Positions 29,538 through 51,654 of a DNA stretch of 64,000 nt are shown here, piece after piece. The notes beneath the pieces were generated by a model. That model was not told where the DNA came from and ran no database searches. It saw only the letters and a list, made by a program, of their open reading frames with translations. The position numbers and the translations under genes were made by a program. How positions within the stretch are numbered: position 1 is the stretch's first letter; every line of letters begins with the position of its first letter. The stretch is from Arthrobacter sunyaminii (lineage in GTDB: Bacteria; Actinomycetota; Actinomycetes; Actinomycetales; Micrococcaceae). The DNA lies in contig NZ_CP076456.1 in NCBI RefSeq assembly GCF_018866305.1, positions 124,001 through 188,000 of the forward strand, written 5' to 3'.

Positions 29538-29610
29538 GCCCCCATCGTCTAGCGGCCTAGGACACCGCCCTTTCACGGCGGCGGCACGGGTTCGAATCCC
29601 GTTGGGGGTA
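29538..29610 (+). tRNA. tRNA-Glu (UUC)
   Basis: 73-nt cloverleaf. The acceptor GCCCCCA pairs with TGGGGGT, the anticodon loop is CTTTCAC with anticodon TTC, and the T arm is CGGGTTCGAATCCCG. The 3' CCA is not encoded. Confidence 0.97.
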
Positions 29611-29669
29611 CTCAGGAGTGGTAATCGGACCGGCAAAATGCTGGTAGAGTTTACACTCGTGAAAAGCAA

Positions 29670-29743
29670 GGCCCTGTAGCGCAGTTGGTTAGCGCGCCGC
29701 CCTGTCACGGCGGAGGTCGCGGGTTCGAGTCCCGTCAGGGTCG
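29670..29743 (+). tRNA. tRNA-Asp (GUC)
   Basis: 74-nt cloverleaf. The acceptor GGCCCTG pairs with CAGGGTC, the anticodon loop is CTGTCAC with anticodon GTC, the T loop is TTCGAGT, and the discriminator is G. The 3' CCA is not encoded. Confidence 0.97.
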
Positions 29744-29779
29744 CTCAGATTTTCTGAAGCGATTTGGAAGATCTCGGTG

Positions 29780-29797
29780 ATCATCGGTTGCGATGAT
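29780..29797 (+). other. Small hairpin between tRNA-Asp and tRNA-Phe
   Basis: ATCATCG-GTTG-CGATGAT forms a perfect 7-bp stem in the 58-base spacer, ending four bases before tRNA-Phe. It may guide processing of the tRNA precursor or act as a weak terminator. Confidence 0.5.
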
Positions 29798-29801
29798 GCC
29801 C

Positions 29802-29877
29802 GGCTCTGTAGCTCAGTTGGTAGAGCGTTCGACTGAAAATCGAAAGGTCACCGGATCGACGCCGGTCGGAGCCACCA
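29802..29877 (+). tRNA. tRNA-Phe (GAA)
   Basis: 76 nt including an encoded CCA. The acceptor GGCTCTG pairs with CGGAGCC, and the anticodon loop is CTGAAAA with anticodon GAA. The T loop reads ATCGACG, with A in place of the usual T54. It is the only one of the three tRNAs with a genomically encoded CCA. Confidence 0.96.
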
Positions 29878-38123: not shown

Positions 38124-39203
38124 GTGAAATTCCTTGACGCGGAGTACACCTTGGAAACCGATGCTGAGCTGGGACTGGTCGAAGAGGTGCTGGACCAGTT
38201 CTTTACGGATGCCAAGCTCCGGGCTGTCTCCCTCCATCCGGCCTACCTCAGCCTGTGGGAAGCGATCGAACGGAACGCAGCCGGCGGAAAACGCTTTCGT
38301 CCGCGCCTGCTCATGCTCGCTTACCGCCAGCTGGGAGGATCCGACCCCACCGCAGCGGCCAAACTCGGCGCGGTCTATGAACTCCTCCACAACGCGTTCC
38401 TCATTCACGACGATGTAATTGACCGGGACCCCACGAGGCGTGGGGTCCCTAATGTGTCGGGGCACTACGCCAATAAGGCCAGGCGTGCGGGCGCATCCGC
38501 GGAGGCTGCACAGCACGCCGGCATGGCTGCCGGGCTGCTGGCTGGGGACCTTTCCCTGGCAGGGGCCTACCGCCTCCACGAAGCGGTTGAAGCGAGCGGG
38601 GAGGTGCGGCAGCGGCTGAACGGCATCCTGGACTACGCCGTGTTCTCTTCCATCGGAGGCGAACTCCTCGATGCTGAGTTCGCCCTGGCGGTTCAAATGC
38701 CCTCCCCCGAGGAGGTTCGGACTGTGGCCCGCCGTAAGACCGCTGTCTATTCCTTTGAGGCACCGCTTCAAGCCGGCGCCTTGCTGGCAGGGGCCCCAGC
38801 CTCCGTTGCCGGAAGGCTCGCCGACTTCGGACGGGATGCCGGAATTGCCTACCAGATTGCCGATGACGTTCGCGGGACGTTCGGCGATGAAGAGGACACT
38901 GGAAAGTCGAACATCGGAGACCTCCGGGAGGGCAAACGGACCGTCCTGCTCTCCTATGCAGCCACTAAGCCGCAGTGGAAAGAGATTTCACAGCTCGTAG
39001 GATCAGGGGAACTGACGGCCGCAGGGGCTGGGCGGATCCGTGACCTGTTGACGGAGTGCGGGGCACGGGAGCACGCTGTCCATCTGGCATCCGAACACGC
39101 ACACGCCGCAGTGAAACAACTTGGGGAAGAGATTCCCGCTGGGCTTGCCGGGAGCTTGGAAAGACTCTTGTTTTCCCTCCTTGCGGAGCTCCATTCCCTC
39201 TGA
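38124..39203 (+). CDS. Polyprenyl diphosphate synthase
   Basis: 359 residues, GTG start with an AGAGGGCG element upstream. Trans-prenyltransferase motifs: GGKRFRPRLLMLAYRQ (diphosphate-binding GKR), the first Asp-rich motif LIHDDVIDRDPTRRG, and the second Asp-rich motif YQIADDVRGTFGDEEDTGKSNIGDLREGKRTVLL. The chain length of the product cannot be fixed; residues before the first Asp motif (LLHNAFL) include no obvious bulky block close to it, fitting a geranylgeranyl or longer product. It is placed between a sugar importer and ROK regulator, about 9 kb from the UbiA-type prenyltransferase, so it could supply its donor. Confidence 0.92.
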   Translation: MKFLDAEYTLETDAELGLVEEVLDQFFTDAKLRAVSLHPAYLSLWEAIERNAAGGKRFRPRLLMLAYRQLGGSDPTAAAKLGAVYELLHNAFLIHDDVIDRDPTRRGVPNVSGHYANKARRAGASAEAAQHAGMAAGLLAGDLSLAGAYRLHEAVEASGEVRQRLNGILDYAVFSSIGGELLDAEFALAVQMPSPEEVRTVARRKTAVYSFEAPLQAGALLAGAPASVAGRLADFGRDAGIAYQIADDVRGTFGDEEDTGKSNIGDLREGKRTVLLSYAATKPQWKEISQLVGSGELTAAGAGRIRDLLTECGAREHAVHLASEHAHAAVKQLGEEIPAGLAGSLERLLFSLLAELHSL

Positions 39204-39301
39204 TCCTGCTTTCCGCAGGTGATGCCCCAGAGCACGTTTACTATGGGAAACTAGTCCGGTTCTGGCCCGTCCGCCAGAAGGACCTATTACGGGGGAAGAA
39301 T

Positions 39302-40519
39302 ATGTTTGCCACCGCCCGCACGCATCCGGGCAGCAACCGGGATTCGAGCCGCCAGCACAACCTCTCCACCGTCCTGCGGCTAGTGCACTCCACTGCTGGC
39401 ATATCCCGTGCCCAGCTCACCCGGACAACCGGGCTCAACCGTTCCACGATCGCAGTCCTTGTCGCCGAGCTATCCCAGCTGGGCCTGGCAGTGGAGAGCG
39501 ACTTGGATACAGCACAGCTGCACGGCCGTCCGAGCATCAAGATCGATCCCAGCCCCGCCGCTCTAGCGCTGGTTGTCAACCCTGATGTCGACGTCGTAAG
39601 CGTGGCCCTGGTCTCCCTGGGCGGCCACATAGTCAACACTGTCCGGTTCCATACGGTCCGGGCACCGTCCGGCGTTGAGGTGGTCAACATCGTGACAGCC
39701 GTCTATTCGGGGATGCGCACTTCCCTGCCCGCAGGCCACCGGGTCATGGGCGTGGGACTGGCAATCCCCGGGCTCGTGCGGACCGACGACGGAACGGTCA
39801 TCGAAGCGCCCCACCTGGGCTGGCAGGACGAGCCGCTGAGCTCCCGCCTTGGGGAAGCGCTGGGACTGCCGGTGTTCACAGCGAATGATGCCGTTGTGGG
39901 GGCCCGCGCCCAGGCGGCGTTTGGTGCCGGACGGGGCGTGGCCGACCTGCTTTATCTCTACGGCGGTGCCAGCGGCATCGGCGGGGGCGTCATCAGCGAC
40001 GGACGCCTGATCCGGGGAGCGGCAGGGTTTGCCGGGCAGCTGGGCCACACGCACGTACGTACCGGCGGCACCGCCTGTACCTGCGGCTCCTCCGGCTGCC
40101 TGGAAGCCGAGGTCACCAGGGCTGCCCTGATCGAGGCAGTTGGCCTGCCCTCCGGGGAAATCGAAAACCTTGAGGAAGCCCTTCTGGAGAAGCTTCAGGA
40201 CGGGTCCTCCAACGATGAGCTGTGCGCCGTCATCTCTCACCAGATCGGATTGCTGGCCGTGGGCTTGAAAACGGTGATGAGCCTCCTGAACCCCTCAGCT
40301 ATTGTCCTAGGCGGGTTCCTTCGCATCCTGGTGCGTGCGGCGCCCGGCGCTTTGGAGGAAGCCCTCGCCGGCTGCGGACCCCGCAGACCCTGGGAAAACG
40401 TGAGAATCGAGCTCGCCCCGCTCGGGGAAGACCAGATCCTGATAGGTGCAGCGGAGCTGGTTTTCGAACCTCTGCTGGCTGACCCGGCAGGCTACCTGCA
40501 AGGGCTGGCAGGAGAGTGA
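39302..40519 (+). CDS. ROK family transcriptional regulator
   Basis: 405 residues from ATG 39302 (GGGGGAAG upstream). An N-terminal MarR-like winged helix (SRQHNLSTVLRLVHSTAGISRAQLTRTTGLNRSTIAVLVAEL) joins a C-terminal ROK kinase-like domain. That domain carries GVGLAIPGLV, FTANDAVVGARAQAAFG, a LYLYGGASGIGGGVI variant and the zinc motif HTHVRTGGTACTCGSSGCLEAE, where the CxCGxxGCxE cysteines are intact. It is likely a repressor that senses a sugar or sugar phosphate, controlling the transporter and prenyl-synthase genes upstream. A strong terminator follows. Confidence 0.94.
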   Translation: MFATARTHPGSNRDSSRQHNLSTVLRLVHSTAGISRAQLTRTTGLNRSTIAVLVAELSQLGLAVESDLDTAQLHGRPSIKIDPSPAALALVVNPDVDVVSVALVSLGGHIVNTVRFHTVRAPSGVEVVNIVTAVYSGMRTSLPAGHRVMGVGLAIPGLVRTDDGTVIEAPHLGWQDEPLSSRLGEALGLPVFTANDAVVGARAQAAFGAGRGVADLLYLYGGASGIGGGVISDGRLIRGAAGFAGQLGHTHVRTGGTACTCGSSGCLEAEVTRAALIEAVGLPSGEIENLEEALLEKLQDGSSNDELCAVISHQIGLLAVGLKTVMSLLNPSAIVLGGFLRILVRAAPGALEEALAGCGPRRPWENVRIELAPLGEDQILIGAAELVFEPLLADPAGYLQGLAGE

Positions 40520-40619: not shown

Positions 40620-42824
40620 TTATGGGGACGGGACCAGTGCAACTTCGGCAGTTCCGGTCAGCGGACCCGTGCCGCCATCGCCTGCATCGGTGTAGGAAGC
40701 ACTGAATACGCCCGATAGGTTGTCGACTGCGGGATCATGTCCCTCAGGCACGGTGGTGGTGATGGATCCGGTGCAGCCCGTGGTGCTTGTCTGCGGGTGA
40801 CCGTGGCTGTCATGGCCCAGAATGTAGGTGATCTGGACACGTGAGCAGTCAACAGGCTGGTCATCCGTCACGCGGACTTCGTAGCTCACGGTGTCTCCGA
40901 ACTGGAAACTCTGGCCGGCAACGGGAGTCACGAACTCCACTACCGGGGCCTGGTTGCCTACTTCAATAAAGACCTCCGCGGAGGAGTATTTGCCCCTATG
41001 CTTGCCGCCTCGGTCGGTCACCTGAAGGTTAGCCGTGTACGTCCCGATTTCCTGATAGGTGTACGTGGGGTTGGGTTGCCGTGAGTCCACCACTCCGTCG
41101 GAGTTAAAGTCCCAGGCGTAGCGCAGCCTGTCGCCGTCGGCGTCGGTTGTACCTGCACTGGAGAACTGCACGGTCAGGGGTGCCATGCCCACTGTGGGAG
41201 TGCCGGCGGCCACCGCTACCGGAGTATGGTTCCCGCCCTGTCCGATGTAATCGATGCGGGAGAGCTGGGCATCCGGGTTCTCGCCAAAGTACCCATCACC
41301 GTATTCGAGTACGTAGAGCGCACCGTTGGGACCGAACTCCATGTCCATGGGGTTGTCCACGATGATCGAATCAACAACATTTTCAATGGAGGCGAGCTCT
41401 CCTCCGTAACTCATGGTCATGGCTTTGATGTAGTCACGGGTCCACTCGTACAGGAAGGATTTGCCGTCATAGTACTTTGGCCAGGCTACGGGCGCTTGTC
41501 CCTTGGTTGCCTTCTTGTCGAAGTTGTAGACCGGACCCGCCATCGGGGCGATTCCTCCGGTCTCGAGCTCCGGGAATTCATCCGATAGGTCGTAGGAGTA
41601 CCAAACCTCGGGCTGAGCCACCGGGGGCAGCTCGCGCAGGCCCGTGTTGTTGGGTGACTCATTGACGGGCGCCGCACAGTTGAAGGTCTCACCTGAGGTC
41701 CCGGTGGCGAAGTCATAGTCTACGTACGGCAGTTCGGCCGTGGCGCAGTAAGGCCATCCGTAGTTTGACGGCTCGGTGATGACTGCCCACTTGCCTGTCC
41801 CAGCCGGGCCCCTGAGCGGATCTGCGGTGCCCGCGTCGGGAGAGTAGTCCGCGATGAAGAGCTCGCCGGTCTTCCGGTTCAACTCAATGCGGAACGGGTT
41901 GCGGAGCCCCATCACGTAGATTTCAGGGCGGGTGAGGGGCGTCCCCGGCTTGAAGAGGTTACCTCGGGGAATGGTGTAGCCACCGTTTCTGGTGGGGGTT
42001 ATTCGAAGCACCTTTCCGCGAAGGTCGTTTGTGTTGGCGGAGGAGCGTTGTGCATCGAATACCGGATTGCTTTCGGGGCGTTCGTCGAGGGGGCTGTAGC
42101 CGCCGGAGGAGAAGGGATTGGTGTCGTCACCCGTGGACAGGTAAAGGTTCCCCTGGGCGTCGAAGACGATGTCTCCTCCGACGTGGCAGCAGCTTCCGCG
42201 GTCCACGGGTACCTGCAGCATCCGTTGTTCACTGTTCATATCGACAGTGCTTCCATCGAATTTGAACCGTGAGAGCTGCAGGTAACCCTTAAAGGGCTCA
42301 AAGTCTGCGGCTGTTCCAGTGGTCGGAGCATCGCCCTCGTTGACGTCGGGCGTAGCCGGGTCATCAACGGGCGTATCCAAGGGCGGAGAATAATACATGT
42401 AGACCCAGTTACTGCCCCTTTTGCCGAAGTTCGGATCAATAGCGATGCTTTGCAGGCCTTCTTCGTCGTGCTCGTAGACGTCGACGGTTGCCGCCAGGGT
42501 GTTCAGTCCGGTTTCCGCATCATTTAGCCATACCTCGCCCTGACGGGTCGTGTGCAGCACGTCGCTGTTGGGCAGCACGGCAAGGTCAACCGGTTCGCCC
42601 GGGTTGTCGTTCAGAGTTACCTTTTGGAAAGCCGAGTCCGGCGGAGCGGTTGCGGGGACACCGGGCTTCGGTCTCGCCTGCGCCGGCACTGCCGCAAGGG
42701 ATACGCCCATCAGCGCGGCCAGGGCTAGGGCTGTGCTGGCCCGCCGTATACGTTTTGCCGAGGTTTTGCTGGCATCCGCCTGATGCCCGGGTGATTGCGC
42801 CAACCCGCGTCTTGTGACTGTCAT
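40620..42824 (-). CDS. Secreted PQQ-type sugar dehydrogenase-like beta-propeller with PKD domain
   Basis: About 734 residues from ATG 42824 (ATGs at 42830 and 42845 are in frame). It has a basic N terminus and a hydrophobic signal sequence (STALALAALMGVSLAAVPAQA). Residues about 60-540 are a glucose/sorbosone-dehydrogenase-like six-bladed propeller with GEPVDLAVLPNSDVLHTTRQGEVWL, EEGLQSIAIDPNF, GDIVFDAQGNLYLSTGDDTNPF and ELFIADYSPDAGT. A PKD domain follows (GMAPLTVQFSSAGTTDADGD...YTYQEIGTYTANLQVTD), then a C-terminal beta domain (about 630-735). It is probably extracellular, oxidising or binding a sugar derivative. Whether PQQ is bound is unknown. Confidence 0.88.
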   Translation of the reverse strand: MTVTRRGLAQSPGHQADASKTSAKRIRRASTALALAALMGVSLAAVPAQARPKPGVPATAPPDSAFQKVTLNDNPGEPVDLAVLPNSDVLHTTRQGEVWLNDAETGLNTLAATVDVYEHDEEGLQSIAIDPNFGKRGSNWVYMYYSPPLDTPVDDPATPDVNEGDAPTTGTAADFEPFKGYLQLSRFKFDGSTVDMNSEQRMLQVPVDRGSCCHVGGDIVFDAQGNLYLSTGDDTNPFSSGGYSPLDERPESNPVFDAQRSSANTNDLRGKVLRITPTRNGGYTIPRGNLFKPGTPLTRPEIYVMGLRNPFRIELNRKTGELFIADYSPDAGTADPLRGPAGTGKWAVITEPSNYGWPYCATAELPYVDYDFATGTSGETFNCAAPVNESPNNTGLRELPPVAQPEVWYSYDLSDEFPELETGGIAPMAGPVYNFDKKATKGQAPVAWPKYYDGKSFLYEWTRDYIKAMTMSYGGELASIENVVDSIIVDNPMDMEFGPNGALYVLEYGDGYFGENPDAQLSRIDYIGQGGNHTPVAVAAGTPTVGMAPLTVQFSSAGTTDADGDRLRYAWDFNSDGVVDSRQPNPTYTYQEIGTYTANLQVTDRGGKHRGKYSSAEVFIEVGNQAPVVEFVTPVAGQSFQFGDTVSYEVRVTDDQPVDCSRVQITYILGHDSHGHPQTSTTGCTGSITTTVPEGHDPAVDNLSGVFSASYTDAGDGGTGPLTGTAEVALVPSP

Positions 42825-42965
42825 CGCCATCTCTCTTCTCGCCATTGAGGACCCGGACCAGCCGGAGTCAGGTCAGGTAGAACGCTAATGGAGGCTTTCT
42901 TGAAGCGCTAGTGGTTTGAAAAAACAAATTCTTTTCTTCTACAAAATTTCCCAATTCCTTGGAAA

Positions 42966-43048: not shown

Positions 43049-44449
43049 TCATTCAGGCAGCCCTTGAGTCTGGAGGACAAGGGATTTCACCGCTGCAGCA
43101 GGGATAGGTTTGCCCGAACGCATCAGTTCTTCGACAAAAGGCGGCAGCTGCTCTTCAGAGGAAATCACCAGTGGCGTGCTTTCCCGGAATGCGGGAAGCC
43201 GCCCGTGGGTCCCGCGTACATGGCGGGGGTCCAACGGCACGGTGCTCATGGCATAGCGCAGCCCCGCTTTTTTCTTGACCAGGTTCAGGCCCGCCTTGGC
43301 CTTGGCCAGTTTGTCTGCCGGGTTGAAGAAGAGTTCGCTCGGGTCATACCCCGGCTTCCTGTGGATATCCACACCGCGTGCATACTCGGGTGCATGGGCA
43401 TCGTCCAGCCAGAAATAGTAAGTGAACCAGGCGCCCGGCTCCGCAATGACGACGAGTTCACCGGAGCGCTGATGGTCCAGGCCGAACCTCGCCTGGGCGT
43501 TCCGGTCCATGACTTCATCGATCCCCCTGGTTCCCTTCAGAATGTCCGCTGTCCGTGCCACGTCGCCGGGGTCCGGAACGTAGACGTGTGCCACTTGGTG
43601 GTCGGCAACGGCAAAGGCACGGGATGCCCACGTATCCAGCTGCTCTTTCCCGTCCTGCACATAAACCTCCAGCAGGCCTTCCTTGCGCAGGACACGGTTG
43701 ATGTCTACGGGCAGATGCGCCTCTTCTATTCCGTACTCCGAGACAGCGATGACCGCGTACCCGCGTGATTCAGCTTCGTCCAGCAGGGGAGCCAGCGCGG
43801 CATCAAGTTCGGCGGCCGCCTTGACTGCTTGAGGATGGTTGGGCCCAAAACGCTGAAGGTCGTAATCGAGGTGCGGCAGATAGGCCATGAGGAGTTCCGG
43901 CGCCTGGGTTCGCATGACATGTCTGGTCGACTCGGCAATCCACTGTGTCGACGCAATGCCTGCGGTCGGCCCCCAATACTGGAACAGTGGGAATTTGCCG
44001 TACCGGGAAACCAATTCGTCGTGAAGCGCCGGGGGGCGAATGTATGCGTCAGGCGATTTCCGCCCGTCCGCGTGATAGATCGGGCGGGGAGTCACGGTCA
44101 CGTCCGTTGACATGCCCATGGCGTACCACCAGCAAATGTTTGCCGCGCGGTAATCAGGTTCCTTGCGGCGGGCACTTTCCCAGATCTTTTCTCCGGTGAC
44201 CAGTTTGTTGTGCTGGCGCCACAGGAATACCTCGCCAAGCTCACGGAAATACCAGCCGTTGCCAACAATCCCGTGCTCGGACGGCGGCAGGCCGGTGAGC
44301 ATAGTCGATTGAACTGTGCAGGTGACTGCAGGAAGGACTGTAGCCAGTTCGGAGGACCAGCCCGCAGCCGCGAGTTTGGATAAACGGGGCATATCCCGCA
44401 GTGACTGCTCAGTGAGTCCCACGATGTCGAGCAGCAGTACCGGTTTCAA
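43049..44449 (-). CDS. EboF-like alkaline phosphatase superfamily protein (nucleotide pyrophosphatase/phosphodiesterase fold)
   Basis: 466 residues, no signal peptide. The N terminus MKPVLLLDIVGL carries the metal-binding Asp. LPAVTCTVQSTMLTGLPPSEHGIVGNGWYF holds the nucleophilic Thr and the metal/substrate loop. MAYLPHLDYDLQRFGPNH gives further metal ligands (Asp/His), and AVIAVSEYGIEEAHLP corresponds to the SDHG-like motif but with Glu-Tyr-Gly in place of Asp-His-Gly. The same family encodes EboF in cyanobacterial and other ebo clusters. It is the last gene of the minus-strand operon, 40 bases after the EboE-like gene. Substrate unknown. Confidence 0.85.
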   Translation of the reverse strand: MKPVLLLDIVGLTEQSLRDMPRLSKLAAAGWSSELATVLPAVTCTVQSTMLTGLPPSEHGIVGNGWYFRELGEVFLWRQHNKLVTGEKIWESARRKEPDYRAANICWWYAMGMSTDVTVTPRPIYHADGRKSPDAYIRPPALHDELVSRYGKFPLFQYWGPTAGIASTQWIAESTRHVMRTQAPELLMAYLPHLDYDLQRFGPNHPQAVKAAAELDAALAPLLDEAESRGYAVIAVSEYGIEEAHLPVDINRVLRKEGLLEVYVQDGKEQLDTWASRAFAVADHQVAHVYVPDPGDVARTADILKGTRGIDEVMDRNAQARFGLDHQRSGELVVIAEPGAWFTYYFWLDDAHAPEYARGVDIHRKPGYDPSELFFNPADKLAKAKAGLNLVKKKAGLRYAMSTVPLDPRHVRGTHGRLPAFRESTPLVISSEEQLPPFVEELMRSGKPIPAAAVKSLVLQTQGLPE

Positions 44450-44489
44450 GGGTTCTCCTTAGTGTTTAGGTGAGTGCCGCGCGCTGGCA

Positions 44490-45614
44490 TCAGGACGGCG
44501 CCGGAGCCAGCAGATGGTTCTCCGCCCACGCGATTTCCCCTGCTATGCCTTCGACAAGATCAACTTGTTTCCCGGGCAGAACACTCCACGTGTAGGTTTC
44601 TATATCCAGATGCACTTGCTGCCCGTACGGCAGGCTGCTGACTTCATCCACAGTCGTTTCCAGCACCTTGGCGGTCGTCTCCAGCGGAAGCATCGGCACC
44701 ACGTGGAGGGGCATATGGAAATGAACCCTCCATGGACCTCTCCCCGGCAGTTCAGCCAGTGCCTGCGGCAGGTCATCTGCCATCAGGACGTTTCCGTCAC
44801 GTCCCAGCTCCCTGACCTGGTGCAGGTACCGCGGTTCCGCGAACGCTACAAGCGCGCTGCGGGCAGCCTCTTCTGAGGGTGCAGCCACGTGCAGTGCGGC
44901 GGAAGCCTGAACCTTTACGACGCGCAGGCCGGCTGCCCCGACGCCACGAACTGCCGCCACGGGGTCGGCAAAAGACACCGCCAGATGGCATGTGTCTATG
45001 CACAGGCCGATGTAATCGGAGTCGATGCCTCTGGGGATTCCCGCTGCCAGCCATGCTGTGACATCCGAAACCGTGTCGAGTACGCATCCCGGTTCCGGTT
45101 CCACCGCTATCCGGACTGTCTTTCCGGTGCGCTCCTTCAGCGTTCTCAGGCCTTCGGACAACTCCACGAACGCCGTGGTAGCGGACTCGTTGTCGTCGCC
45201 AGTCCAGGGATCACGCCAAGCTAGAGGCAGCGTGGAGATGGATCCCGGCATCCCTTCGGGAAGCAGGGCCGCAAGGACGTTTGCACACTCCAGGGTGTAC
45301 TGCAGTCGCTCCCGCTGTGCCCAGGTGGGCTGATAGACGTCTCTCTTCACTACCTCGTTGTGGAAGCCCCCGTAGGGAAAAGCGTTCAGGGTATGGATTT
45401 GCAGTCCCTGCTCGGAGAGCACCTCACGAAGCAATGTCACATCAGCGGCGCTTCCCGCCAGACGGCTGGCCAGCCCTGCCGGCAGCCACAGCCCGACGCC
45501 GAGAACGTCCAGCCCCGCCCTGCGGCGGATAGGACCGGCATATTCACGGAGCTGACGGATTACCCCATCAAGGTCCTCGGCCGGATGCACGTTGGTGCAG
45601 TAGGAAAGCTGCAT
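44490..45614 (-). CDS. eboE: EboE-like TIM-barrel protein (metabolite traffic protein EboE)
   Basis: 374 residues. The xylose-isomerase-like TIM barrel begins MQLSYCTNVHPAEDLDGVIRQL, then LDVLGVGLWLPAGLASRL, the characteristic TLNAFPYGGFHNEVVKRDVYQPTW and RIAVEPEPGCVLDT. Toward the end come SDYIGLCIDTCHLAVSF and MPLHVVPMLPLETT, all typical of EboE. In cyanobacteria the ebo genes are needed to deliver a scytonemin precursor to the periplasm; the enzymology of EboE is unsolved. Its start shares one base with the TatD gene stop (TGATG). Confidence 0.88.
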   Translation of the reverse strand: MQLSYCTNVHPAEDLDGVIRQLREYAGPIRRRAGLDVLGVGLWLPAGLASRLAGSAADVTLLREVLSEQGLQIHTLNAFPYGGFHNEVVKRDVYQPTWAQRERLQYTLECANVLAALLPEGMPGSISTLPLAWRDPWTGDDNESATTAFVELSEGLRTLKERTGKTVRIAVEPEPGCVLDTVSDVTAWLAAGIPRGIDSDYIGLCIDTCHLAVSFADPVAAVRGVGAAGLRVVKVQASAALHVAAPSEEAARSALVAFAEPRYLHQVRELGRDGNVLMADDLPQALAELPGRGPWRVHFHMPLHVVPMLPLETTAKVLETTVDEVSSLPYGQQVHLDIETYTWSVLPGKQVDLVEGIAGEIAWAENHLLAPAPS

Positions 45615-46492
45615 CAGGCGCGGACTCCCCGCAGGAGTGAGTTGCCTTCGAACGTCTCCCCGGCTCCCCCGAGTTCCGCTCCGTCAAAACCGGGGATCGG
45701 ATCGAGGATCAGCGCACCGCTTTGGCCGTAGAACTCGACCGGGTTTTGCCAAAGGACGCGGTCGACGTCGTCCTCCGAGAACCCGCCGGCGAGCATGGCT
45801 TTCGCTGTGCTCGCTGTCTTGAGCGGGTCGGATTTTCCCCAGTCCGCGGCAGAGTTAATCAACACCTTCTCGGTGCCGTACTCGTGGAGGATTGCGACCA
45901 GGCGTTCCTCATCCATCTTGGTGTCCGGATAGATGGAGAAACCCATCCAAGCTCCGGAGTCCTTCACCATGTGCACGTTGGTTTCATTAAGGTGGTCAAC
46001 AACGACCATCGAGGGATCAACCTTCGACTCGCGGACTAGGTCGAGTGTCCGCTGGGTGCCCCGGAGCTTCTCCCGATGCGGGGTGTGCACCAGCGCAGGG
46101 AGGGAGAACTCGCTGGCCAGCTCCAGCTGGCGGCTGAACGCCTCATCCTCGGCCGGAGTCATGGAATCAAAACCGATCTCTCCGACCGCAACGACCCCCT
46201 CTTTGGCCAGGTACCGGGGAATCTCCTCCAAGACCGGCACGCATCTGGGATCGTTGGCTTCCTTGGGATTCAGGGCGATCGTGGCGTGGTGCCGGATGCC
46301 GTACTGGGCGGCCCGGAACCGTTCCCAGCCCAGCAGGGAATCAAAGTAGTCGATGAAGGATCCGACGCTGGTTCTTGGCTGTCCCAACCAGAAGGCGGGC
46401 TCAACCAGTGCCCGTACTCCGCTGTCATACATAGCGGCGTAATCGTCGGTCGTGCGGCTTGTCATGTGGATATGCGGGTCAAAGATGCGCAT
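45614..46492 (-). CDS. eboB: EboB-like TatD-family metal-dependent hydrolase
   Basis: 292 residues. The amidohydrolase-like TIM barrel starts with the HxH metal motif MRIFDPHIHMTSRTTDDYAAMYDSGVRALVEPAFWLGQP. GVVAVGEIGFDSMTP supplies the bridging Glu, LPALVHTPHREK and VVDHLNETNVHM further His ligands, and VLINSAADWGKSDPLKTASTAKAMLAGG the final Asp. This TatD subgroup accompanies EboA/C/E/F. It is separated from the TIM-EboA fusion by two bases and overlaps the EboE-like gene. Confidence 0.88.
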   Translation of the reverse strand: MRIFDPHIHMTSRTTDDYAAMYDSGVRALVEPAFWLGQPRTSVGSFIDYFDSLLGWERFRAAQYGIRHHATIALNPKEANDPRCVPVLEEIPRYLAKEGVVAVGEIGFDSMTPAEDEAFSRQLELASEFSLPALVHTPHREKLRGTQRTLDLVRESKVDPSMVVVDHLNETNVHMVKDSGAWMGFSIYPDTKMDEERLVAILHEYGTEKVLINSAADWGKSDPLKTASTAKAMLAGGFSEDDVDRVLWQNPVEFYGQSGALILDPIPGFDGAELGGAGETFEGNSLLRGVRA

Positions 46493-46494
46493 GG

Positions 46495-48000
46495 CTAGGA
46501 CTCCTTACGGGAGATGGAGGGACTGGCGGCAAGGCCCAGCAGGAGACCGACGTCGTCCGGTACCGGGCGTCCCGCTGCTTGCCGTTCGGCGGCGAAATCG
46601 GTGGCCATGCGCGCCAGTTCGTCATCCGCCCGCTCATCGAGGTCGGTTACGGCGGCAATGCTGACGCCCATGAAGATGAGCTTTAGGACCGCGTGGCGCC
46701 AGTTGTGCTGGTCAAGGTAGGCGGCGGCGAAGGGGCCGACGGCGGCCGCGACCAGCCCGGTCTCGTTCGTTCGAAGTGCCTCGGCGGTCAGCCGCAGGCC
46801 CGCTGCGATGACGGGAACGGGCAGATCCGGCTCATAAACGGCCAATGACCCCAGCCCCCTCAAGACGCCGCGCCGTTCCGAGGAGTCTCCCCTGCTGTAC
46901 AGCGAAAGGAGAGCCTCGGCCAGATCTTCGGGAGGGCGGAACTCCCACAGGCGCCGAATGAGCTCGCCGCGGGCGTAGTCGCTGTTGCTGCCATGGAGGA
47001 CCGCCGTGGGATCGATGGCCGGCTGGAGAGGACTGCGGCCAACCCTTCGGCTGGCTGCGGCGAAAACTGCTGGCAACGCACCGGGATCTGCCGCGATTCG
47101 GGCCACGCTTTCCTGTAGCCATTCTTCCGCCGCTTTGCCTGCCTGGGCTTCCTGCCAGGCGGCCTGCAGGGCGGCCATGCTTCGGGTGGCCAAGCCTGGT
47201 GCATCAAAGGAGTGCCGGGGCAGCTCGACGGCGGCCACCCCTCGGTAATCCAGTTCTGCGAGCGTTGCCAGGGCAAGCGCGACGTTGACCTCCCCTTCAC
47301 CGAACGGAAGATGCTCATGGGCAACGGACCGCATGTCGTCGAGCTGGACGTTCGCCAAAAGTGCTCCGGCTTCCATCAGTGCACCGCGCACTCCGCCGGG
47401 CTCAACCACTACACAGTGTCCTATGTCCACGGTCAGCCTGAGTCCTTGCGGGTTGCCGAGGCGGGTTCGAAGCTCAAGGGCATCAGCGACGGTCTCCACC
47501 AGCATTCCGGGCTCCGGTTCAATGGCGAGCAGGACCCCTTTCTCGGCAGCATGCCCAAGTACGTCAGCAACCCGGGTTTCCAGCCGCTTCCAACCGGACT
47601 CTGGGCTGGTTTCGGGAGGCAGGATCCCCGAGAAGAAAGAGACACATTCGGCGTTCAGTACCGCGGCGATGTCTATTGCCCGGCGAAGGAAATCGACCCG
47701 GGTTGCGGCGTCTTCGTCGACAAGGGTTGGCCGATGTTTCTCCCGCCGGTTGAGCAGGAAACGCGTACCGGTCTCTATGACAATCCGAAGGTCCAGGTCC
47801 TCGAGGCGGCTGCGCAGGCACTTGAGCCGGGCTTCCAAGTCTGGGGCGAAAGGGTCCAGATGAGGATGGCCGAGAGTCAGGGCCACAGCTCCGTAACCGA
47901 GTTCGTACAGCATCTCCAGTACGTCCGGAAGCGGATGGTCTGTGAAACCATTGGTGCCATACCCGATGCTGAATGGTGGGGAAGATGGCGTGGTGGTCAT
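46495..48000 (-). CDS. Fusion of a sugar-phosphate-isomerase-like TIM barrel with an EboA-like domain
   Basis: 501 residues in two parts. Residues about 8-290 form a xylose-isomerase/IolE-like TIM barrel: IGYGTNGFTDHPLPDVLEMLYELGYGAVALTL, AIEPEPGMLVETVADAL, LRLTVDIGHCVVVEPGG, NVQLDDMRS and LPFGEGEVNVALAL. Residues about 340-500 are an alpha-helical EboA-like domain (RRLWEFRPPEDLAEALLSLY, then AAYLDQHNWRHAVLKLIFMGVSIAAVTDLDERADDELARMA). EboA is normally an independent small protein. The gene overlaps the prenyltransferase stop by four bases and is followed by the TatD gene after two. The fused barrel may be the sugar-handling partner of EboA. Confidence 0.85.
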   Translation of the reverse strand: MTTTPSSPPFSIGYGTNGFTDHPLPDVLEMLYELGYGAVALTLGHPHLDPFAPDLEARLKCLRSRLEDLDLRIVIETGTRFLLNRREKHRPTLVDEDAATRVDFLRRAIDIAAVLNAECVSFFSGILPPETSPESGWKRLETRVADVLGHAAEKGVLLAIEPEPGMLVETVADALELRTRLGNPQGLRLTVDIGHCVVVEPGGVRGALMEAGALLANVQLDDMRSVAHEHLPFGEGEVNVALALATLAELDYRGVAAVELPRHSFDAPGLATRSMAALQAAWQEAQAGKAAEEWLQESVARIAADPGALPAVFAAASRRVGRSPLQPAIDPTAVLHGSNSDYARGELIRRLWEFRPPEDLAEALLSLYSRGDSSERRGVLRGLGSLAVYEPDLPVPVIAAGLRLTAEALRTNETGLVAAAVGPFAAAYLDQHNWRHAVLKLIFMGVSIAAVTDLDERADDELARMATDFAAERQAAGRPVPDDVGLLLGLAASPSISRKES

Positions 48001-48878
48001 GACTCGCTCACTTTCCTGCCCCCGGGACGGGAACGGATGATCCTGCCCAAGACGTCCACCCCAATCAGCGCACCTGCACCCAGCAGGTGTCCGTGCCGTA
48101 CCGCGAGCGCTGCCTGAAGTGGAACCATCGCGCGGATGCCCGCCTTGGTCGCATTCAGGGCGTTAATTGCCGCAGGGTCCCGCGCCGCCCTGATTTGGGC
48201 AGGTCCACATCTCAGGGCATAGGCAGCCGTGGCTGTGAGAACGGCGAGCGTTTTGATCGGCGGTCCAGCGGATCCGGCCACGACTGATGCGGCCAGCAGC
48301 CCGGTCGCTGCTGCGACACCGGAGGCGGTGGCAGCGTCTGTTCCATCGACTTCACCACGGGAAAGGAAAGTCACGGCGACAGTATGGCCACCCATGATGC
48401 CCGCAGCCCCAAGTGCCGGCCTGACATGGCCTGCTCCCGCACCCATCAGGACGTCAAGGGCCCGGCAGGTGCCCATCGAGACGGCTCCAGCTAGCGCATG
48501 CTCCTTAGTCACCAGGTCATAAGTCCAAATCGACACCGCAAGCGGAATCCCCACAGCCAAGGAGCTCCAGCCGCCGGCCACAGCACACAGCCCCAGTCCG
48601 GCGGCTGTGAGGGCAGATGCGGCGGCCAGGGCACTCCGGGGGCTGACCCTTCCGGAAGGAATGGGCCGCTTTGGACGTTCGCTGGCATCGATGTCCCGGT
48701 CTGCGTAATCGTTGAGGGCCATTCCGCCGGCATAGAGGCACGCGCTCGCCACCGGCATCCACACGCGCCGTCCGGTGAGGGGCCGTCCAGCAGCAGCCCC
48801 GCCTGCCACGGAATCCCCCAGGACAGTAAGGACAGCGGGAGCCCTAACCAATTCCAGGTAATCGCCGAGCCTGGTCAC
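47997..48878 (-). CDS. eboC: EboC-like UbiA-family prenyltransferase (SCO3242-type)
   Basis: 293 residues with about eight membrane helices. The first Asp-rich motif is MALNDYADRDIDASERPKRPIPSGRVSP (N-D-x-x-D-x-x-x-D plus RP), typical for UbiA enzymes that transfer a prenyl chain using magnesium. The second motif region (SIWTYDLVTKEHALAGAVSMG) aligns with the D-x-x-K loop. It is an integral membrane enzyme. The acceptor could be the cyclised sugar or inositol product of the preceding gene. Both ends overlap neighbouring genes by four bases (ATGA). Confidence 0.9.
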   Translation of the reverse strand: MTRLGDYLELVRAPAVLTVLGDSVAGGAAAGRPLTGRRVWMPVASACLYAGGMALNDYADRDIDASERPKRPIPSGRVSPRSALAAASALTAAGLGLCAVAGGWSSLAVGIPLAVSIWTYDLVTKEHALAGAVSMGTCRALDVLMGAGAGHVRPALGAAGIMGGHTVAVTFLSRGEVDGTDAATASGVAAATGLLAASVVAGSAGPPIKTLAVLTATAAYALRCGPAQIRAARDPAAINALNATKAGIRAMVPLQAALAVRHGHLLGAGALIGVDVLGRIIRSRPGGRKVSES

Positions 48879-50140
48879 AGTTGTTCACGTCCCGTGTCCG
48901 AGAGGAGGCGGCCACTGGCAACGAGCGCCCACTCCGCAAGGTTATGTGTCTGCTGTGCGAAGGAATGCTCTTCACTGCCCCAGGGATCCTTGAAGAAGAA
49001 GCCAAAGGCCCCAACATGCCCGGTTTCTCCTGCCGCGTCTGCAAGCGTCATGAGGCGGGCGAGGTCGAGGATCATCGGAGCTGCCAGCATGGAATCGTAG
49101 GCGCTCCACGTTGTTTGGATCGTCAGGCGGGAGCCCAGGAATCCTTCCACGTGGATGTGATCCCACGCGACTTTGGTCTCGCCCAAGTCCGGCACGTTGT
49201 CAATGTGCAGCGGGATGACAGCGCCTCCTGTGAGCTCGTGCAATCCGCGGTTCTTCGACAGCAGCTTTGCGGAAACAGCGCGGCTGTCCGCAAGCGTGGC
49301 TCCGTCCCCGCCGCCCAGCAAATTGGTCCCGGCCCAGGACAGGACCTCCAGCCCGCGTGCGGCAAGCGCCGGAGCCAGTACCGAGCGCAGCCAGGTCTGG
49401 CCCGTTTTGCCGTCCTGGCCTGCGGTGGGAACCCGGAAGGCGCCAGCAAGCTCATACAGAGCAGGAACGTTCAGGGCCGTTGACGGCGTGAAACATATGT
49501 ATGGAGAGCCAGCCAGAACGGCTGCGTAGGCCGCTACCGAGCTGGCGGGCAACACAGACCGTGCCGGATCCTCGAGCGCCGACTTCAGGAGATCGATGTC
49601 GTGGTACTCGGCGAGCTGGTCCAGCGGTGCCTCTGTGGAGGCGACGTCCAAGACGATGACCCGCCGCAGCCCGTTTGTTTCTTTGAACGCAACGATGTCG
49701 CTGGACAGGCGGCTTGCGGCATCGGCCTGCGACTCTGCGGTGCCAGCGGGATCGTATCCAGAACACACCCGGCCGTCCGCTTCAAGGAGCTGGGCTCTGA
49801 CTGATTCAACGAGATGGCCGGGGACCATGCCTGCATCAGCAAGTTTCTCCGCCCGCTTGACCATGGAAACGCCGCTGATGTCATGGCCACCCACCACGAA
49901 GTCTGCGTAGTCCGGGAGGCACGCGCCGTGGAAGGTGTCCTGTTCCGTCACGCATCCCACGGGTTTCACCAGCCGGGAGGCGATGGCTGCCAGGCCGATC
50001 ACTGCTGTTGTTGCCACCGACCCCCGTGCGCCGATGAGCCAGATTCCTGTCCGGCCGTAGTCCCAGTCCTCCGGCGCGGTACCGAGTACCGATTCTTCGT
50101 CCGCCTTGACTGACATGCCCTTGTGGGTGTCCCTGATCAA
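48875..50140 (-). CDS. Inositol-3-phosphate synthase family protein, first gene of the ebo-like operon
   Basis: About 421 residues from TTG 50140, which has AGGAGG four bases upstream; ATG 50161 and ATG 50116 are in-frame alternatives. The Rossmann loop is GIWLIGARGSVATTAVIGL. Cyclase-type motifs follow: YICFTPSTALNVPALYEL, GQDGKTGQTWLRSVLAPAL, WAGTNLLGGGDGATLADSRAVSAKLLSK, the IDNVPDLGETKVAWDHIHVEGFLG block and WSAYDSMLAAPMILDLARL, matching NAD-binding and catalytic blocks of inositol-phosphate synthases. It should cyclise glucose-6-phosphate or a related sugar phosphate. In other ebo clusters an EboD sugar-phosphate cyclase of the 3-dehydroquinate-synthase type holds this place. Confidence 0.88.
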   Translation of the reverse strand: MIRDTHKGMSVKADEESVLGTAPEDWDYGRTGIWLIGARGSVATTAVIGLAAIASRLVKPVGCVTEQDTFHGACLPDYADFVVGGHDISGVSMVKRAEKLADAGMVPGHLVESVRAQLLEADGRVCSGYDPAGTAESQADAASRLSSDIVAFKETNGLRRVIVLDVASTEAPLDQLAEYHDIDLLKSALEDPARSVLPASSVAAYAAVLAGSPYICFTPSTALNVPALYELAGAFRVPTAGQDGKTGQTWLRSVLAPALAARGLEVLSWAGTNLLGGGDGATLADSRAVSAKLLSKNRGLHELTGGAVIPLHIDNVPDLGETKVAWDHIHVEGFLGSRLTIQTTWSAYDSMLAAPMILDLARLMTLADAAGETGHVGAFGFFFKDPWGSEEHSFAQQTHNLAEWALVASGRLLSDTGREQL

Positions 50141-50182
50141 ACTTCCTCCTAGAAGCTTCATGTACCGCCGGCGTGCCCACGC

Positions 50183-50211: not shown

Positions 50212-50451
50212 ACGCTGGTCACAGGGAACCTAGCATAGGTAATGTCAGGTCACAACGTACTTATGAGGTATTCCGATATATCTGCGCTTGGCGTTGCCAT
50301 CATTTCGTCGAATGCCGGCGGGCAATAGGGGGATTTGTGATGATCAACTGCTCCCCGGCCACTTAGGGCGGATCAATTCAAACTAGTAGACCCATGTCCT
50401 GCGAAGATACCCAAGTAAATAGTTCCGTCGGCTTTATGCTGTAATGAGTCG

Positions 50452-51654
50452 GTGAGTGACATAAGTAGCGTTGGCGGCCTTGCATCGTCCGGAGCGAGCG
50501 AGCTCTTCCAGATCCTTCGCGACGGGAAACCTCGGACCCGGTCCGAGCTGGCCGAACAAATGGGACTGGCCCGCTCAACAGTCACCCTCCGGATCGAAGC
50601 ACTTATGGATCTGGGGCTCGTAGGGTTCGTTGAGGACGCCGTCTCCACCGGGGGCCGCCCGTCCTCCCGCATCGCACTCAAGGCAGGCAGCCGGGTTGTG
50701 CTCGGAGTGGACATCGGGGCATCCCACCTCCAAGTGGCGGTCACGGACCTCACCGGGCACCTGCTTTCCCAATCTGCCCGGGCACTGGAAATCACTCGGG
50801 GTCCAGATGCGGTCCTCGAAGCGGTTGTTGAACTCGGCACGGAATTGCTCAACGGGACCGGACGGTCATTGGAAGACCTCCTGGCCGTTGGTATCGGGCT
50901 GCCTGGTCCCGTGGAGCACCGCACCGGACGGCCCATCAATCCGCCCATCATGCCCGGATGGAACGGCTACGACGTGCCTGGATACCTTCAGGCACGATTC
51001 CATGTTCCTGTCCTGGTCGACAATGACGTCAACATCATGGCCCTGGGCGAACGCAATATGTCCTGGCCACAGGTGGACAATCTGCTGTTCGTTAAAGTTG
51101 CCACCGGGATCGGTTCAGGCATTGTCTCAAGTGGGATGCTTCAGCGGGGGGCGGACGGAGTCGCCGGCGACATCGGGCATATTCGCGTGCACGGCGGGAC
51201 CGGAGTCCCCTGTCACTGCGGCAATACTGACTGTCTGGAAGCCATAGCATCCGGGCCGGCCATTGCCTCAAAGCTGCGCCAGCTGGGCATTGAGGCCAGC
51301 GGCAGTGAGGACATCGTGGCACTGGTGAGCGCCGGAAACACGGAAGCCATCCACGCAGTCAGGCAGGCCGGACGAGACGTTGGGGACATCCTTTCGGCAT
51401 GTATTAGTCTCATCAATCCTTCGGTAATAGTCATAGGGGGATCCATGGCCCTTACTGGCGAACACTTCATTGCCGGCATCCGGGAGACGGTGTACTCGCG
51501 CACCATCCCGCTTGCCACACAGCATCTGCAGATTGTCCATTCCGGCTCCGGCCTCGACGCCGGTGTGCTGGGTGCCAGCATGCTGGCGATTCACCACGCC
51601 ATGTCTCCCCAGCGCATCGACGCCATGGTCTCCGGACTAAGCATCGCCGACTGA
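50452..51654 (+). CDS. ROK family transcriptional regulator, divergent from the ebo-like operon
   Basis: 400 residues, GTG start with a weak ribosome-binding site. Winged helix at about 15-70 (SELFQILRDGKPRTRSELAEQMGLARSTVTLRIEALMDLG). The ROK domain has VLGVDIGASHLQVAVTDL (phosphate loop), VGIGLPGPVEH, PVLVDNDVNIMALGERN, FVKVATGIGSGIVSSG and the zinc motif HIRVHGGTGVPCHCGNTDCLEAIAS. DVDIGA-like residues are intact, so sugar binding is plausible. Its position suggests autoregulation and control of the ebo-like operon. Confidence 0.94.
   Translation: MSDISSVGGLASSGASELFQILRDGKPRTRSELAEQMGLARSTVTLRIEALMDLGLVGFVEDAVSTGGRPSSRIALKAGSRVVLGVDIGASHLQVAVTDLTGHLLSQSARALEITRGPDAVLEAVVELGTELLNGTGRSLEDLLAVGIGLPGPVEHRTGRPINPPIMPGWNGYDVPGYLQARFHVPVLVDNDVNIMALGERNMSWPQVDNLLFVKVATGIGSGIVSSGMLQRGADGVAGDIGHIRVHGGTGVPCHCGNTDCLEAIASGPAIASKLRQLGIEASGSEDIVALVSAGNTEAIHAVRQAGRDVGDILSACISLINPSVIVIGGSMALTGEHFIAGIRETVYSRTIPLATQHLQIVHSGSGLDAGVLGASMLAIHHAMSPQRIDAMVSGLSIAD

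Follow-up and report, generated by a model that had tools for sequence, protein, structure and literature searches.

The window analysed here is a stretch of 64,000 nucleotides from the Arthrobacter sunyaminii genome (contig NZ_CP076456.1, positions 124,001 to 188,000). Between its positions 43049 and 50140 lies a cluster of ebo-type genes, in which a sugar-phosphate cyclase of the myo-inositol-phosphate-synthase (MIPS) family occupies the place of EboD, a protein of the 3-dehydroquinate (DHQ) synthase superfamily. Six open reading frames (ORFs) on the minus strand encode seven modules, which are referred to below by the single letters M, C, T, A, B, E and F:

48875..50140, minus strand: M, MIPS-family sugar-phosphate cyclase of 421 amino acids, in EboD's place (PF07994, 162.6 bits; PF01658, 94.7 bits)
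47997..48878, minus strand: C, UbiA-superfamily prenyltransferase of the SCO3242/EboC type (PF01040, 80.5 bits; NDYAD motif at residue 56)
46495..48000, minus strand: TA, TIM-barrel sugar isomerase/epimerase-like domain (T, residues ~1-300; PF01261, 116.6 bits) fused to an EboA domain (A, residues ~341-486; NF035938, 139.7 bits, cut-off 50)
45614..46492, minus strand: B, EboB, TatD-like metal-dependent hydrolase (PF01026, 54.2 bits; motifs HIH, GEIG, HTPH and DH)
44490..45614, minus strand: E, EboE (NF035939, 424.4 bits, cut-off 250)
43049..44449, minus strand: F, EboF, PF01663 phosphodiesterase/pyrophosphatase family (PF01663, 209.7 bits)

The initial annotation had described six tightly coupled genes, and the ORFs and every junction were found as claimed. 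M and C overlap by four bases (48875-48878), as do C and TA (47997-48000); TA and B are separated by two bases (46493-46494), B and E share one base in a TGATG-type junction (45614), and 40 bases lie between E and F (44450-44489). Although the longest ORF of M would begin at 50161, the annotated 5' end at 50140 fits better, since its TTG codon is preceded, four bases ahead, by AGGAGG at 50150-50145 and the first homologues listed are 421 amino acids long.

Hidden Markov model searches placed the proteins in the Ebo families, with the EboA domain and EboE above their cut-offs and the others matching TatD, PF01663 and PF07994/PF01658. Profiles of the actinobacterial EboB and EboF proteins score 447 and 618 bits against their Azospirillum counterparts, and EboF is assigned to the PF01663 family in the paper that named the ebo genes (PMC5133447). 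The naming of the prenyltransferase as EboC stands in part. The protein is of the UbiA family and EboC-like, but it exceeds the cut-off of the NCBI SCO3242 family NF045897 (309.5 bits against 260) and falls below that of the curated EboC model NF035940 (157.9 bits against 250). EboD is absent from the cluster, the sole PF01761 match of the 3.91-Mb, single-contig genome being 2.2 Mb away. One other PF01658 gene is present in this genome, far from the cluster.

Occurrence of the MIPS-family cyclase in ebo clusters

A search with M retrieved 80 loci, 78 from Actinobacteria and two from planctomycete bins, and their gene content was determined by tblastn. The order M-C-T-A-B-E-F on one strand is found in 66 of the 80, which is far beyond chance. 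Ten of the other 14 end at a contig edge (L018, L035, L051, L056, L064, L065, L067, L071, L072 and L073), L057 is rearranged, and no C was detected by tblastn in L081. The two planctomycete loci, L079 and L080, were rejected as ebo clusters: no ebo genes were found in the stretches read, and their EboE matches are weak (~31 bits). In both, the MIPS gene directly follows a GT87 glycosyltransferase gene (L079, 7111-10182; L080, 7617-10182). T and A are fused, as in the window, in 23 of 85 loci, and are separate genes in 62.

Since loci found through M cannot prove that ebo clusters hold M, EboE was searched for independently. In a survey of 296 Actinobacteria genomes, the EboE profile exceeded its cut-off in 17, all of which have a PF01658 gene 3.6-5.4 kb from EboE, while a DHQ_synthase match near EboE was found in none of them. 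Sixteen of the 18 EboE-found loci are complete and in the order M-C-T-A-B-E-F.

A second survey covered 394 genomes of the window's class, with EboE above the cut-off in 102; 12 of these had been examined previously, and 80 of the 90 new ones were checked. A listed PF01658 gene lies within 8 kb of EboE in 65 of the 80, for which the other ebo genes were looked for where the region had been fetched, and M is present in the fetched region of five more (G455, G488, G557, G585 and G619). Five genomes have a lone EboE-like gene with no other ebo match in the region (G317, G406, G483, G518 and G574). When these are excluded, M is adjacent in 70 of the remaining 75; of the last five, three are cut by contig ends (G342, G438 and G530), in addition to G420 and G315. 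Among the matches listed, no DHQ_synthase lies within 60 kb of EboE in this survey, and fragmented genomes have many on other contigs. Lone EboE-like genes, with no other ebo match in the region, score 247-283 bits with the actinobacterial profile (L169, L170, L171, L172, L175, L176 and L177), and they account for at least seven of the 102 EboE-positive genomes in the regions fetched.

These surveys demonstrate that actinobacterial ebo clusters carry M in place of EboD. The initial annotation had stated that the cyclase differs from the DHQ-synthase-like type, and this is borne out beyond the window. It had also named two outcomes as contrary to its proposal, and neither was found: the proteins fall into Ebo families by profile, and the genes stay together across loci.

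For comparison, a search for EboB gave 52 plasmid records, of which 40 were listed, and five non-actinobacterial ones were opened. The Azospirillum, Mycetohabitans, Salipiger and Ketogulonicigenium plasmids carry an ebo cluster that includes a gene annotated as 3-dehydroquinate synthase, and the Gloeothece stretch has EboB and a gene so annotated only. Another EboD-type cluster, of Aureibacter, was found through an EboC search. Five full EboD-type plasmid clusters (L124, L125, L126, L128 and L160) give no M match and T matches of at most 25 bits. The best model for the cyclases of L124, L125, L127, L128 and L160 is NCBI NF004852, named 3-dehydroquinate synthase.

Active site, ancestry and TIM-barrel partner of M

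To judge whether M is catalytically competent, we compared it with the MIPS of A. fulgidus, in which residues K274, K278, K306, K367, D332, N255, D225, K227 and D261 are taken as catalytic. All 99 actinobacterial M proteins have each of them except K367, which is present in 98, with a gap in the remaining one. Since these residues are retained, M is very probably an active cyclase. The NxLGNxDG loop is altered. Where A. fulgidus has Asp 259, all 99 actinobacterial M proteins have Gly, followed by a second Gly. At the Asp 259 position, Asn is found in each of the 14 relatives compared, among them the three haloarchaeal cluster proteins and that of Gemmatirosa, and likewise in all 14 mycothiol-type enzymes. 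The substrate of actinobacterial M may therefore not be glucose 6-phosphate, which tells against the pathway that we favour below.

M might thus have changed its substrate, for example to sedoheptulose 7-phosphate, so that the ring would still be a C7 cyclitol and the MIPS fold would have converged on the reaction of EboD. The replacement of Asn by Gly-Gly next to a catalytic Asp is fixed in actinobacterial M, a MIPS-family enzyme of other specificity exists in the PDB (6k96, 'Five-membered-cyclitol-phosphate synthase'), and sedoheptulose 7-phosphate is the proposed substrate of EboD (PMC5133447). Nonetheless, the canonical Asn is present in the cluster enzymes of the haloarchaea and Gemmatirosa, and the lysines and aspartates of the catalytic site are retained. 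We therefore regard such convergence as unlikely; a shift of specificity confined to the actinobacterial clade of M is possible.

In the phylogenetic tree, 30 actinobacterial cluster M proteins form one clade (99/99), and the mycothiol-type MIPS of five ebo genomes is a far outgroup, ruling out that M is a copy of the host's mycothiol enzyme. The same data bear on whether M merely supplies myo-inositol phosphate for general use, such as phosphatidylinositol or mycothiol, and owes its place in the operon to chance or to regulation. In favour, M is a MIPS-family protein of full length. Against this, a second PF01658 gene exists elsewhere in 16 of the 17 ebo genomes of the phylum survey, the mycothiol-type enzyme is only distantly related to M, and M is tied to ebo throughout the phylum. 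We consider general supply very improbable.

The haloarchaeal cluster M proteins group with a haloarchaeal non-ebo MIPS, and in a quick tree they fall inside a broad haloarchaeal MIPS set. A single clade of the 33 cluster-linked M sequences was rejected (p-AU 4.5e-5), whereas one clade with the haloarchaeal non-ebo L134 inside was not (p 0.41; with Gemmatirosa as well, p 0.054). Since the clade including L134 withstands the test, these results do not establish that Actinobacteria and haloarchaea recruited MIPS separately, and recruitment may have taken place once or more than once.

The relationship of M to the TIM barrel was examined with a T profile of 88 actinobacterial proteins, from which the planctomycete L079 protein was left out; it replaces an earlier profile that included L079 and gave inflated scores (186-202 bits for the haloarchaeal barrels and 288 bits for L079). 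M was identified by Pfam, tblastn or annotation, and the bits of its own profile are not independent because that profile included several of the relatives later scored. With the T profile, the two small TIM barrels in each of three haloarchaeal plasmid clusters (Natronococcus, Halocatena and Halobaculum) score 141-164 bits. These clusters also contain M, UbiA, TatD and PF01663 genes, while the haloarchaeal stretches gave no match to EboA. Their barrels score at most 45 bits with the EboE profile built on actinobacterial proteins, and 28 bits with NCBI's EboE model (one tested). Conversely, the T profile gives 17-23 bits for EboE of the EboD-type clusters and no match to three other TIM barrels offered. 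In the gemmatimonad Gemmatirosa (L136), E, B, F, C, M and T stand together, with EboE at 459.9 bits.

Outside ebo clusters, M and T are also neighbours, no more than about 5 kb apart, in Fimbriiglobus (L079; T 144 bits) and, with T at 300-349 bits in all eight, in Methylobacterium (L135, L161), Hymenobacter (L137), Roseomonas (L138) and actinobacterial loci L158, L187, L189 and L190. What is new here is that M goes with T, a distinct TIM-barrel family, in actinobacterial, haloarchaeal and gemmatimonad ebo-like clusters and outside ebo.

The Hymenobacter and Roseomonas loci (L137, 8593-17294; L138, 8977-18289) are annotated with a MIPS-family cyclase, a Gfo/Idh/MocA oxidoreductase, a YcaO-like protein, a T-family TIM barrel and a PIG-L deacetylase, and the neighbourhood looks like an undescribed cyclitol pathway. 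L135, L161, L187, L189 and L190 were scanned for M and T only, and have both.

Several observations weigh against a strict bond between ebo, M and T. A second ebo copy in G123 has T without M; the clusters of G315 and of G244, the latter with a broken EboE that scores below the cut-off, have neither. In G420, the C-T-A-B-E-F set is accompanied by no more than a short M match (79 bits; L174, 13925-14581), and its full-length M (L188) is on another contig. Neither this M nor an extra M copy in G376 (L191) has T beside it. The Haladaptatus plasmid L159 has B, T, C, T and F, and no M on that plasmid. The haloarchaeal T proteins are less like actinobacterial T than the non-ebo bacterial ones (141-164 against 300-349 bits). 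Finally, of 16 MIPS genes on plasmids that do not belong to the actinobacterial ebo set, eight have T in the stretch read and eight do not. The latter include Bacteroidota operons, which probably represent ordinary inositol lipid synthesis, as a CDP-alcohol phosphatidyltransferase gene is present.

Genes beside the cluster

Three further features flank the operon:

40620..42845, minus strand: glucose/sorbosone dehydrogenase (GSDH)-type beta-propeller with a PKD domain, probable associate (PF07995, 90.6 bits; PF18911, 59.2 bits), 203 bases downstream of eboF
50452..51654, plus strand: divergent ROK-family regulator/kinase, candidate regulator (PF00480, 194 bits, and winged-helix matches)
50228..50240, no strand: palindrome ACCTA-N3-TAGGT between M and the ROK gene, possibly an operator, read by eye in an alignment

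The dehydrogenase is probably secreted, judging from a signal-peptide-like N-terminus read by eye. A PF07995 gene lies within 11 kb of EboE in 12 of the 17 genomes of the phylum survey, where 0.32 would be expected from gene number and genome sizes, and two of the five misses (G153 and G094) reach contig ends. Its position varies, from downstream of F in the window to upstream of M in L109, L112 and L113. Against a general partnership, homologues of the window dehydrogenase were found in the available flanks of only 31 of 98 loci, a set that leaves out most Cellulosimicrobium, Promicromonospora and Mycobacterium loci. Other beta-propeller genes recur. Four Streptomyces plasmid clusters were opened. 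In two of them, M is immediately preceded by a ScyD/ScyE-family gene and the cluster is followed by a gene for a multicopper oxidase; in the other two, neither is annotated there. Salipiger has a pyrroloquinoline quinone (PQQ) dehydrogenase gene after EboB; Natronococcus has a GSDH-like gene (45 bits), and none is annotated in Halocatena and Halobaculum. This recurrence, a correlation only, is the reason for proposing an extracytoplasmic role for the product. Both the adjacent dehydrogenase and the tie between T and M go beyond what the initial annotation described.

ScyE is a beta-propeller protein. The window dehydrogenase was ruled out as a ScyE (19.4 bits against a cut-off of 80). ScyE matches occur in 14 of 18 genomes, with none within 20 kb of EboE among the matches listed. 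Ten of the 12 genomes in which GSDH is linked to the cluster lack a PqqC match, as do 15 of the 18 ebo genomes searched, so we do not claim that these dehydrogenases use home-made PQQ. The window genome has a PqqC match of 340 bits with one TGA inside (G000:C1:3315745-3316443).

The cluster may alternatively be a system for exporting or carrying a small molecule, as proposed for Nostoc, with the prenylated cyclitol as the carrier rather than the end product. This argument is drawn from Nostoc punctiforme, where scytonemin production requires each of five ebo genes, the monomer remains cytoplasmic in ebo mutants, and a lipid carrier is favoured by the authors (PMC6282210). In the window, a scan of 14 neighbouring ORFs showed no gene of the scytonemin type, in line with the initial annotation, and the neighbour present in 12 of the 17 genomes is a dehydrogenase-type gene. 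A carrier function is conceivable to us, although we would not put it at even odds.

Of the remaining neighbours, ROK homologues are found in the flanks of 21 of 98 loci, and the window has a second ROK gene at 39056-40519. The arms of the palindrome are identical in L004 and L005, have one change each in L003 and L014, and were not seen in L006-L008. Another inverted repeat upstream of M, CTCATTCA...TGAATGAG, was discarded, as it occurs besides the window only in L003 among 21 upstream stretches scanned. The polyprenyl synthetase encoded some 4 kb downstream of the cluster (PF00348; 38124-39203, plus strand) might supply EboC; it was ruled out as a fixed partner, with similar genes flanking only 7 of 98 loci. 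Three successive tRNA genes, for Glu, Asp and Phe, lie at 29538-29877.

Proposed pathway and relation to known systems

An isoprenoid-cyclitol product has been proposed by the ebo authors, with sedoheptulose 7-phosphate as the likely ring source for EboD (PMC5133447). We consider it fairly probable that the cluster is a MIPS-type variant of this pathway, in which M, together with T, supplies the ring, C prenylates it, and the product is a membrane isoprenoid-cyclitol acting outside the cytoplasm. Using the NAD-dependent oxidation-aldol-reduction of MIPS, M would convert a sugar phosphate into an inositol-type phosphate; glucose 6-phosphate is the most likely substrate. T has the metal-site motifs of sugar isomerases/epimerases and, given its tie to M, may isomerise or epimerise the cyclitol or its keto form, so that M and T would jointly occupy the slot that EboD fills elsewhere. 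C would then prenylate the cyclitol, or its phosphate, at the membrane, after which the head group could be trimmed by EboE, EboB and EboF, the last of these taking off a phosphate or pyrophosphate; EboA, here fused to T, would be a helper. The isoprenoid-cyclitol would serve reactions outside the cytoplasm, in the window probably those of the adjacent beta-propeller dehydrogenase.

A prenylated C6 cyclitol is the most likely product. The MIPS swap is consistent with a cyclitol and brings in glucose 6-phosphate as a possible source of the ring. More tentatively, we suggest that the ebo carbocycle can come from two non-homologous systems, either EboD or a MIPS-type cyclase with T, that the ring in the latter case is a six-carbon, inositol-type one from glucose 6-phosphate and not the seven-carbon one proposed for EboD, given that the haloarchaeal and gemmatimonad cluster enzymes keep the canonical MIPS loop, and that the product serves secreted beta-propeller dehydrogenases of the GSDH, ScyE-like and PQQ types. 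If true, the link between product and dehydrogenase fits the observation that ebo and scyE mutants both lack scytonemin, although it would not alone account for the different location of the monomer in the two. Two further points count against the proposed pathway: in vitro, an ebo prenyltransferase is reported to farnesylate 8-HQA, an aromatic acceptor (PMC9235831), and no activity or product of an ebo pathway was found to be demonstrated in the literature searched.

That the ring-forming step has been swapped in nature gives good reason to believe that the rest of the ebo pathway needs a cyclitol. Being common to many actinobacteria and some archaea, the swap narrows the possible product and names an assayable substrate and cofactor, and the tie to a probably secreted dehydrogenase offers a possible readout for the use of the product. 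Ebo clusters are also widespread, as reflected by the 102 EboE-positive genomes of the window's class.

Parts of this picture are already known. Yurchenko 2016 (PMC5133447) mentions actinobacterial hybrids of a TIM barrel with EboA as 'data not shown'. Two of three Planctomycetes have been described as lacking eboD, SCO3242 and SCO3243 have been listed together as CDA-cluster genes, and the NCBI family names exist. In the open-access PMC literature searched, we found no earlier report linking a MIPS-family cyclase to ebo, and the word 'inositol' is absent from the main texts of PMC5133447, PMC6282210 and PMC9235831. The link between MIPS and ebo thus appears to be new.

Compared with the eboABCDEF operon of eustigmatophyte plastids, Bacteroidetes and Cyanobacteria (PMC5133447), the window cluster likewise holds an EboA domain, EboB, an EboC-like UbiA protein, EboE and EboF in a tight operon, but it lacks EboD, has the MIPS-family cyclase and the extra TIM barrel instead, and differs in gene order. 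In the scytonemin ebo/scy cluster of Nostoc punctiforme (PMC6282210), the ebo genes are associated with the gene for the periplasmic protein ScyE, and eboD lies outside the ebo cluster proper but nearby; the window has a dehydrogenase neighbour and no scyA-C among the neighbours scanned. Streptomyces coelicolor SCO3242 (putative transferase) and SCO3243 (myo-inositol phosphate synthase) match C and M by annotation only, with C scoring as a member of the SCO3242 family; they are listed in a transcriptome paper (PMC3610822) solely as CDA-cluster genes. Among characterised structures, the A. fulgidus MIPS (1u1i) belongs to the same family as M (190.6 bits) and has the presumed catalytic residues in common, while it and other MIPS have Asn/Asp-x in the loop before the catalytic Asp, where M has Gly-Gly. 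The cyclitol-phosphate synthase 6k96 is distant from M (29.6 bits) and, like M, represents a use of the MIPS family outside inositol lipid synthesis.

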